This document shows positions 48,625 to 51,347 of a DNA stretch of 64,000 nucleotides, in pieces. The DNA comes from Vulcanimicrobiota bacterium (GTDB lineage Bacteria; Vulcanimicrobiota; Vulcanimicrobiia; Vulcanimicrobiales; Vulcanimicrobiaceae): the NCBI GenBank assembly GCA_027452165.1, contig DAIDGX010000008.1, forward strand, positions 1 to 64,000, written 5' to 3'. How positions within the stretch are numbered: position 1 is the stretch's first letter; each line of letters starts with the position of its first letter. Position numbers and translations under genes: made by a program. The notes beneath the pieces were generated by a model. It was not told the origin of the DNA. It saw only the letters and a list, made by a program, of their open reading frames with translations, and ran no database searches.

Positions 48625-48969
48625 CTAGGCTTTTTTCTTGCGTCCGCCCTTGCGTGCGGCTTTCTTGCGTCCGCCCGCGGCCTTCTTGCGTCCCGCAGCC
48701 TTTTTGCGTCCGCCTGCGGCCTTTTTACGTCCGCCGGCTTTCTTGCGTCCCGCGGCCTTCTTGCGTCCCGCAGTTTTCTTGCGTCCGCCGGCAGCCTTCT
48801 TGCGACCGCCTGCGGCCTTCTTGCGTCCGCCCGCTGCTTTGCGCGTCGCCTTCTTGCGTCCGCCTGCAGCTTTCTTGCGGCCACCGGCCGCTTTGCGACG
48901 CGACGCTTTGCGACGCGGTTTCTTGGCTTCACCCATGGTTTCGCCATTCATCATGGTATCCGAGTCCAT
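48625..48969 (-). CDS. Histone-H1-like lysine/arginine-rich repeat protein
   Basis: The 114-aa product is very basic. After MDSDTMMNGETMGEAKK it consists of about twelve units of the pattern RKKAAGG or GRKKA, ending GGRKKKA. Such tails are like the C-terminal part of histone H1 and of bacterial AlgP/HU-tail proteins, and bind or compact DNA. There is no folded HU domain here. ATG 48969 follows GAGGAGG. The repeat also leaves other frames open, which are not genes. It is divergent from topA, with a 206-nt gap that contains the alternating Y-R tract. A chromatin role near the topoisomerase gene is inference. Confidence 0.85.
   Translation of the reverse strand: MDSDTMMNGETMGEAKKPRRKASRRKAAGGRKKAAGGRKKATRKAAGGRKKAAGGRKKAAGGRKKTAGRKKAAGRKKAGGRKKAAGGRKKAAGRKKAAGGRKKAARKGGRKKKA
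48636..48912. repeat. Degenerate tandem repeat encoding KKAAGGR units
   Basis: About twelve imperfect 15-21-nt units with the core TTCTTGCGTCC (plus strand) encode the basic repeat of the histone-like protein. Unit length varies, which suggests slippage or recombination. It is coding and not a CRISPR array: there are no spacers. Confidence 0.8.
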
Positions 48970-49068
48970 TCATTCCTCCTCGTCCCCCGGGGGACGAACA
49001 GCTATAGTTGGACAGCGCACAATTACGCTTTAAGCGCACTATAAAGGATTTCGACAAATCATGCAAAT

Positions 49069-49119
49069 CGCGCGTACGTGCGCGCACGCACGCGTACGCG
49101 TACACGCGTGTGCGCGCGC
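49069..49119. promoter_or_regulatory. 51-nt perfect alternating pyrimidine-purine tract (Z-DNA prone) upstream of topA
   Basis: From 49069 to 49119 every base alternates pyrimidine and purine with no break; most steps are CG, with some TA, TG and CA. Long CG-rich tracts of this kind can flip to Z-DNA when negatively supercoiled. It ends 19 nt before the -35-like element of topA. A role as a supercoiling sensor is inference. Confidence 0.7.
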
Positions 49120-49138
49120 CCTGGACCAGCGGCGTCGT

Positions 49139-49168
49139 TTGCCCGGGTCTTGACCCCGGGAGTATACT
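49139..49168 (+). promoter_or_regulatory. Probable topA promoter giving a leaderless mRNA
   Basis: TTGCCC (49139-49144) and TATACT (49163-49168) are 18 nt apart. Transcription would start at about 49175-49176, right at the GTG start of topA, which has no ribosome binding site. The spacer contains the inverted repeat GGGTC-TT-GACCC (49145-49156). Confidence 0.6.
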
Positions 49169-49175
49169 TAGCCCC

Positions 49176-51347
49176 GTGAAAAAGCCCCTGATCATCGTCG
49201 AGTCGCCGACCAAGGCGCGCACGATCAAGAAGTTTCTCCCGCCGCGCTACGTGGTGAAAGCGTCGGTCGGTCACGTGCGCGATCTTCCCAAGAGCACGCT
49301 CGGAGTCGACGTGGAGCACGACTTCACACCCAGATATCTGACGATCAAGGGCAAAGGCGACGTCATCAAGGAGCTCAAAAGCGCGGTCAAGGGCGCAAGC
49401 GACGTCTTCCTCGCAACCGACCCCGATCGCGAAGGCGAGGCGATCGCCTGGCATCTGGCGGAGTTACTAAAGCTCGACGATCCCAAGCGGATCGAGTTGC
49501 ACGAGATCACGAAAGATGCGGCGCTCGCGGCAATCAAAGAGCCGCATCGCATCGACATGGATCGCGTGAACGCCCAGCAGGCGCGCCGCATCCTCGATCG
49601 TCTGGTCGGATACAAGATTTCGCCGCTGCTGTGGGCGAAGGTGCGCGGCGGGCTCTCCGCCGGGCGGGTGCAGTCGGTCGCGGTACGCCTGATCGTGGAT
49701 CGGGAACGCGAGATCGGTGCGTTCGTTCCGCGCGAGTACTGGAGCCTTACGGCATCGCTTGCGACCGGCCGCGAGCCGGCGATCGTGTTCCCCGCGGAGC
49801 TGGTGGCACGCCGCGGCGAGAAGTTCGAGATCACGAAGAAATCCGAGGCCGACGAGGCGCTCGCCGCGCTCGAGGGAGCCGCCTTCTGTGTTGCGGGGGT
49901 GAAGCATCGCGAAGTGCGACGCAACGCGCCCGCGCCGTTCACGACCTCGACCCTCCAACAGGAAGCATCGCGTAAGCTGCGCCTGCGCGTGCGCCGCACG
50001 ATGCAGATCGCACAGGGGCTCTACGAAGGTGTCGATCTCGGCGGTAGCGAGGGGACGCAGGGCCTCATCACCTACATGCGTACCGACTCGACGCGCATCA
50101 GCGATTCGGCGCGGGACGCGGCGCGCGAGTACATCGTCGGGGCCTACGGCGAGGCGTTTCACGGTGGCCGGGCGCACAAGGTTCGCGAGGGCGCGCAGGA
50201 CGCGCACGAAGCGATCCGGCCCACGAGCGTGCTGCGAACGCCCGAGAGCGTGGCGCACGTGCTCAAACGCGACGAGCTACGTCTCTACACGCTGATTTGG
50301 GAGCGTTTCGTTGCATCGCAGATGGCTGCCGCCGTCTTCGATCAAACCGCAGTCGATATCGCAGCCGGTGACTATACGTTCCGCGCCACCGGGAGCGTGG
50401 TGAAGTTCCAGGGCTTCACCCGCGTATATGAAGAAGGGCGCGACGAAGAGGTCGCGGCCGATAAAACCGATGCGGGCGCCGCTGCCGGCGCGAAGAGCAA
50501 GGGGCGCGTGCGCTTGCCGGAGTTACACGAAGGCGACGGGCTCGACGTCAGCAAGCTCGATGCCAAGCAGCACTTTACCGAGCCGCCTCCGCGCTTCACC
50601 GAAGCGACGCTCGTCAAGGCGCTCGAAGAGAACGGCATTGGACGTCCCTCCACCTACTCGACGATCGTCGATACGGTCCAAGCTCGCGGATACGTGACGC
50701 AGGAGGATCGGCGTTTCAAACCGACCGAGATCGGAATCGCCGTCAACGATCTCCTGGCCGAGCATTTCAAAGATATCGTCGATCTGAAGTTCACGGCCGA
50801 GATGGAGGGGGCACTCGATAAGGTCGCCGAGGGGAATCAAGACTGGGTTGCGATCCTGCGAGATTTCTACGGCCCGTTCGCAATCGAGCTGGAAGAGGCC
50901 GAGAAGAAGCTGCCGCGACTCGAGATCAAGGACGAGCCCACCGACGAGATCTGCCCGAATTGCAGCCGGCCGATGGTGATCAAGACCGGACGTTTCGGAA
51001 AGTTTATCTCATGCAGCGGATACCCCGAGTGCAAAACCACCAAGCCGATCGTGAAAGATACCGGGGCGAAGTGTCCCAAAGACGGCGGAATGGTCGTCGA
51101 GCGGCGCTCGAAGAAGGGGCGCACGTTCTACGGGTGCGCCAACTATCCGAAGTGTGATTTCGTCTCGTGGGATCGCGTAATTCCGGAGCCGTGCCCGGTG
51201 TGCGGAAGCCACGTTGTTGCGAAGAATCGCCGCGGTGGCGTGGTGCTTGTCGAATGCGCGACCGACAAGGAGCACGACGTTTCGTCGCTCGCACCGAAGA
51301 ACGCTGGAGATGAAGCGCACGACGGGCGCGAGCTCGCGGAAGTTTAG
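49176..51347 (+). CDS. topA: DNA topoisomerase I
   Basis: The 723-aa type IA enzyme relaxes negative supercoils. The Toprim domain begins at once (KKPLIIVESPTKARTIKKFL) with its DPDREGEAIAWHLAE acidic motif. The catalytic Tyr is in GLITYMRTDSTRIS. Three C-terminal zinc-ribbon units follow (CPNCSRPM...CSGYPEC; CPKDGG...CANYPKC; CPVCGS...C). GTG 49176 gives the exact family N-terminus; the frame stays open back to TTG 49008 but translates the alternating tract into Arg/Ala/Thr-rich nonsense. trmFO follows 23 nt later. Confidence 0.96.
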   Translation: MKKPLIIVESPTKARTIKKFLPPRYVVKASVGHVRDLPKSTLGVDVEHDFTPRYLTIKGKGDVIKELKSAVKGASDVFLATDPDREGEAIAWHLAELLKLDDPKRIELHEITKDAALAAIKEPHRIDMDRVNAQQARRILDRLVGYKISPLLWAKVRGGLSAGRVQSVAVRLIVDREREIGAFVPREYWSLTASLATGREPAIVFPAELVARRGEKFEITKKSEADEALAALEGAAFCVAGVKHREVRRNAPAPFTTSTLQQEASRKLRLRVRRTMQIAQGLYEGVDLGGSEGTQGLITYMRTDSTRISDSARDAAREYIVGAYGEAFHGGRAHKVREGAQDAHEAIRPTSVLRTPESVAHVLKRDELRLYTLIWERFVASQMAAAVFDQTAVDIAAGDYTFRATGSVVKFQGFTRVYEEGRDEEVAADKTDAGAAAGAKSKGRVRLPELHEGDGLDVSKLDAKQHFTEPPPRFTEATLVKALEENGIGRPSTYSTIVDTVQARGYVTQEDRRFKPTEIGIAVNDLLAEHFKDIVDLKFTAEMEGALDKVAEGNQDWVAILRDFYGPFAIELEEAEKKLPRLEIKDEPTDEICPNCSRPMVIKTGRFGKFISCSGYPECKTTKPIVKDTGAKCPKDGGMVVERRSKKGRTFYGCANYPKCDFVSWDRVIPEPCPVCGSHVVAKNRRGGVVLVECATDKEHDVSSLAPKNAGDEAHDGRELAEV

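Follow-up and report, generated by a model that had tools for sequence, protein, structure and literature searches.

An alternating pyrimidine–purine tract, predicted to form Z-DNA, between the divergent promoters of topA and a histone-H1-like gene in a clade of Vulcanimicrobiaceae

The topA region of the source genome

The window analysed here is a stretch of 64,000 nt on contig C8 of the source genome (G000; 2.64 Mb in 27 contigs). It carries topA, encoding DNA topoisomerase I, and, transcribed away from it, a gene for a protein resembling histone H1. The features that we recognize at this locus are as follows, with coordinates given for the window.

48625–48969, minus strand: divergent gene for a Lys/Arg/Ala/Gly-rich, histone-H1-like protein of 114 aa
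48980–48997, minus strand: inverted repeat TCGTCCCCCGGGGGACGA, located in the H1-like gene's 5' leader and touching its Shine–Dalgarno sequence
49038–49043, minus strand: −10 box TATAGT of the divergent H1-like promoter
49062–49067, minus strand: −35 box TTTGCA of the divergent H1-like promoter, part of the conserved ATGCAAAT; the tract is 1 nt away
49069–49119, no strand: uninterrupted 51-nt alternating pyrimidine–purine tract, predicted to form Z-DNA
49120–49138, plus strand: fast-evolving spacer between the tract and the topA −35 box, part of the local control for type of substitution
49139–49144, plus strand: −35 box TTGCCC of topA
49150–49154, plus strand: TTGAC element within the spacer of the topA promoter
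49163–49168, plus strand: −10 box TATACT of topA, 7 nt upstream of the GTG
49176–51347, plus strand: topA, DNA topoisomerase I (Toprim, Topoisom_bac, Zn ribbons)

Pyrimidines and purines alternate perfectly at all 51 positions of the tract, as the initial annotation had stated, and 16 of its 25 pyrimidine–purine steps are CG. It is a long, uninterrupted, CG-rich alternating run, as is looked for in a Z-DNA-forming sequence. The longest other alternating run in the window measures 17 nt, and in 60 sequences simulated from the window with a third-order Markov model the maximum was 15–25 nt, against the 51 nt of the real sequence. The rest of the genome contains six alternating runs of at least 22 nt (sizes 22–26 nt), all of them inside open frames of 311–862 codons each. 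Most of the space between the two divergent promoters consists of the tract, which leaves 19 nt between its end and the topA −35 box.

The topA promoter reads TTGCCC-N18-TATACT, with a spacer of 18 nt and a G/C-rich discriminator (TAGCCCC) before the GTG start codon at 49176, and its boxes stand where they had previously been placed relative to the tract and to the GTG. The earlier description of the layout as leaderless holds in the form of near-leaderless: of 90 promoter rows, 65 place TATACT no more than 9 nt from the start and the other 25 place it 31 nt or more away, and this predicted layout is conserved in relatives. The rows derive from a family sample of 99 genomes, of which 90 gave a topA match and 88 a readable start, and comprise these 88 genomes plus two second copies.

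The divergent gene, whose −35 box is touched by the tract, had been missed by the initial annotation. Its promoter reads TTTGCA-N18-TATAGT, and an H1-like open reading frame is divergent from topA in 87 of the 90 family rows, which makes a conserved pair of a relaxing topoisomerase and a chromatin-like protein. The protein carries AAGGRKK repeats; it has no Pfam match, and its name reflects composition alone.

Distribution of the tract and selection on its alternation

The pattern (YR)14 occurs in 10 of the 99 family genomes and, among the matches listed, lies in the topA gap in nine of these; the count of 12 in G001, a congener of the source genome, is the number that one 51-nt tract yields. 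The tenth genome has a CGCGTG repeat at a contig start (G091:C188:6-39; L072), the only run of at least 28 nt outside the topA gap among the matches listed for the 99 genomes. Across 149 genomes of the phylum, (YR)18 is present in six, and every match listed falls in the gap between topA and the H1-like gene. These six genomes (three species of the source genus, two of genus g52 and one of g31) form a single clade on a topA tree of 41 rows, with support of 98/91, while the nine genomes with runs of at least 28 nt require three changes on this tree.

The nine long tracts are 30–61 nt in length. All nine start 0–3 nt from TGCAA of the H1-like −35 box (in G002, this applies to the first of two sub-runs), whereas the distance from tract to TTGAC on the topA side, computed from gap, offset and run, varies between 29 and 49 nt. 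The tract had been described as lying beside the topA promoter; it is indeed upstream of the topA −35 box, but the promoter that it adjoins is that of the H1-like gene. As the tract touches this −35 box, the element is better regarded as shared, and as anchored at its H1 end, not its topA end.

Shorter alternating runs begin at the same place in other genera. Runs of at least 12 nt, the long ones included, are found in 37 rows and begin no more than 5 nt from TGCAA in 24 of these; roughly one row in two lacks a run of this length. Genera g26 and g19 have no tract worth the name and, with relatives such as these lacking a long tract, topA can evidently do without it. The best genome reached p ≤ 0.01 in 15 of 31 genera against mononucleotide shuffles and in 8 of 31 against dinucleotide-preserving shuffles, after removal of rows whose gap was below 25 nt, that contained N or in which no divergent box had been located; the second figure makes the case weak outside the long-tract clade. 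On the genomes compared, the long tract is thus a trait of a clade and not of the whole family. No such tract was seen in the rows examined from family f3 and from families beyond it in the phylum, nor by the (YR)18 search. A general feature of topA can be rejected, as the longest upstream run was 12 nt among 75 topA loci of other bacteria (75 of 80 loci, with up to 400 nt upstream; we removed L087–L090, of which L087 is a near relative with a 91% identical topA, and one locus with too little upstream DNA).

The initial annotation had made its reading depend on conservation in related genomes, and within the long-tract clade alternation is kept while the sequence itself turns over. The 51-nt tracts of the congeners G000 and G001 align without gaps and differ by 15 transitions and no transversions (29% divergence), whereas the next 30 nt, up to TTGAC, contain no transitions and 7 transversions (Fisher's exact test, p = 5.9e-6). 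The 366 topA fourfold sites of this pair show 41 transitions and 103 transversions, and at the fourfold-site rate the probability of zero transversions over 51 sites is 5e-8; fourfold sites carry codon bias, and the spacer supplies an independent rate of similar size (7/30 versus 103/366). Sequences alternating in phase can differ by transitions only, so the informative facts are that alternation has persisted at all and that transversions are free in the neighbouring bases. The six clade members, 324 nt in all, break alternation at only two steps, each of them in G002, with pairwise differences of 12–20 in 44–59 nt (25–43% of tract positions), nearly all of them transitions and 0 or 1 a transversion. 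Because the tract departs in this way from both spacer and fourfold sites, we attribute the pattern in the long-tract clade to purifying selection on alternation and not on sequence. Conservation of alternation beyond sequence identity is the behaviour looked for in functional Z-DNA.

Several other readings of the tract were rejected. DNA folding of the nine tracts was no better than that of YR-dinucleotide shuffles (z +0.1 to +1.4), which speaks against a hairpin or cruciform, and the RNA fold of the whole gap between the H1-like gene and topA was unremarkable (z −1.1). The best tandem-repeat scores, 47 and 31, lie below the default threshold of 50 for a microsatellite. Coding is disfavoured by the spacing between tract and topA start, which is not constant modulo 3 among clade members; open frames across the tract carry no information, as a strictly alternating sequence cannot contain a stop codon. 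Five Rfam hits all scored far below the gathering scores for structured RNA.

Predicted B–Z transition and its possible role

The flip of the tract from B to Z form was calculated with the quadratic supercoiling energy 1100RT/N. B–Z energies and the junction cost were those printed in the accessible part of PMC3024258, and the calculation treats a single site within a large domain; the model ignores competing transitions, protein binding and protein-bound supercoils. The source tract has a computed threshold at a superhelical density (sigma) of about −0.028, with an uptake of 9.7 turns on flipping. All six clade tracts have computed flips at −0.0275 to −0.0285, a near-equality due in part to the model, in which the junction cost is fixed and is shared out over the length of the tract. 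The best other site in the window flips only at −0.0355. A B–Z transition is therefore predicted by the model at physiological superhelix density, in line with the earlier suggestion that the tract would form Z-DNA under negative supercoiling, and the Z-DNA reading appears well supported by evolution and calculation.

Since the 1980s there has been debate over whether bacteria make use of Z-DNA, for the most part on the basis of synthetic inserts. Here a natural tract with selection on alternation is found at the gene of topoisomerase I, which relieves the very stress from which Z-DNA arises, and the old question of a bacterial function for Z-DNA becomes testable by one swap of ~51 bp. For E. 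coli, Rahmouni and Wells reportedly described in 1989 Z-DNA that local supercoiling induces, and Sheridan, Benham and Hatfield are said to have reported in 1999 that promoters are changed by a distant B–Z transition; both are said to have used experimenter-made inserts. The E. coli systems, as reported, resemble the present one in having alternating pyrimidine–purine DNA near promoters, with Z form driven by transcription-made or global negative supercoiling and able to change the promoter response. Unlike these inserts, the tract described here is natural, conserved and located at genes setting DNA topology, and its Z form is predicted.

Supercoiling-sensitive topoisomerase I promoters are described in the accessible parts of studies of mycobacteria (PMC4770202), where neighbouring transcription also matters and a −35/−10 spacer of 14–16 nt is held responsible, and of Streptomyces (PMC5055605), where a 13-nt spacer is held responsible; in the main text of both, the word Z-DNA is absent. 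The topA control region is likewise expected to answer to supercoiling here, but in place of the suboptimal 13–16 nt spacer that marks such promoters it has an 18-nt spacer and a Z-prone tract. The accessible part of PMC3024258 deals with Z-prone promoter DNA that flips with transcription at c-myc and other eukaryotic promoters and mentions divergent transcription; the flip is predicted in our case, and the c-myc type is eukaryotic and without a link to a topoisomerase gene. A search of titles and abstract openings, with thin coverage of subscription journals, found no Z-DNA tract at a bacterial topA promoter. Z-DNA near promoters is itself known, and what seems to be new is that a Z-prone promoter element occurs naturally, is conserved and is located at topology genes.

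With somewhat more confidence than doubt, we propose that the tract is kept for its Z-DNA-forming ability and serves as a torsional relief valve between two genes of DNA topology. According to the twin-domain model, divergent polymerases leave negative supercoils behind them. The tract would lie untranscribed between the promoter of topoisomerase I and that of a lysine-rich nucleoid protein, which point in opposite directions, and polymerases departing both ways would send negative supercoils into the gap. Once the local superhelical density passed about −0.028, the tract would change from B to Z and take up ~10 negative turns. Such a flip would act as a cap, allowing little torsion beyond this value at either promoter, and may thereby couple or limit their output. 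As a G/C-rich discriminator is favoured by negative supercoiling in a published model (PMC8422995, accessible in part), buffering in the gap would limit this response of the topA promoter. The H1-like promoter is probably at least an equal partner of topA, because its −35 box is at a fixed distance from the tract and the distance to topA varies; the position as such does not imply a direct effect on topA. A further step, which we hold tentatively and with rather more doubt than belief, would be to see here a natural, maintained bacterial Z-DNA switch with a fixed threshold near −0.028 in the region controlling both topoisomerase I and a histone-like protein, acting as a homeostat of supercoiling and compaction without a regulator protein.

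The interpretation given in the initial annotation is partly supported, namely in the conserved alternation, the predicted flip and the near-leaderless promoter. The built-in supercoiling sensor for topA that it proposed would be one way to read the tract. An activating sensor, in which the Z flip, or torsion diverted past the tract, raises topA under excess negative supercoiling, would draw on the same selection and threshold data, on a discriminator of the type raised by negative supercoiling in the accessible part of PMC8422995, and on the sensitivity of mycobacterial topoisomerase I expression to supercoiling (PMC4770202, likewise in part). However, the tract is fixed to the other promoter, its flip would absorb the very torsion that would open the topA promoter, and this promoter could be supercoiling-sensitive without it. 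Since a distant B–Z transition is said in the title of the 1999 study to inhibit supercoiling-dependent activation, a buffer or clamp is no less probable than an activating sensor; the latter we consider unlikely. The close and constant start of the tract at TGCAA could instead mean that the element belongs to the H1-like gene, with Z-DNA or a B–Z junction at the −35 box controlling that gene (for example by exclusion or recruitment of the lysine-rich protein itself) and topA a mere neighbour; the topA promoter is, however, also within reach, and we rate this explanation slightly lower again.

Much less probable is an array of sites for a sequence-reading protein, with alternation as a by-product. 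The tract ends (CGCGCG... and ...GCGCGC) are alike in the closest genomes, and 5- to 7-mers are shared slightly above shuffles when all nine tracts, kin included, are counted (p 0.018–0.035), but this excess disappears with one tract per genus (p 0.25–0.81) and the extent of change within the clade, nearly all by transitions, argues against conserved sites. Neutral CG-rich dinucleotide expansion yet to decay, or a site-specific mutation process, strikes us as the least probable explanation: slippage can create alternating runs and tract lengths do vary, but the tract is hardly repetitive, the congeners have diverged substantially without one transversion, and such tracts occur, among the matches listed, at one place only in 149 genomes.

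Further elements of the two promoters

The arrangement TTGAC-N8/9-TATACT is present in every one of the 90 family rows, none having failed the search, and at one site only in the whole source genome. TTGAC also stands 8–9 nt ahead of the −10 box in all four rows of family f2 and in 12 of 13 rows of family f3, where it precedes TATAGT. TTGACA-N16-18-TATAGT is likewise present in 10 of the 13 f3 rows, so that the f3 promoter has two TTGAC boxes spaced by about one helical turn. This conserved box is perhaps an operator or a special polymerase contact. In the source sequence, TTGAC at 49150 forms a second TTGAC box, about one helical turn from the −35 box. The operator-like dyad GGGTC-TT-GACCC noted earlier in the same spacer is present in the source sequence but was rejected as an operator, as just 3 of 90 rows retain all five arm pairs.

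The leader of the H1-like gene folds well (z −3.75), with TCGTCCCCCGGGGGACGA forming a strong hairpin. A pattern search finds a TCGTCC...GGACGA hairpin, with variable inner bases, in 58 of the 90 family rows; it may control translation of the histone-like gene. In many of the family rows inspected, we also observed an operator-like inverted sequence, AGCGC...GCGCTTTNAGCGC, around the predicted start point of the H1-like gene (48999–49043, minus strand).
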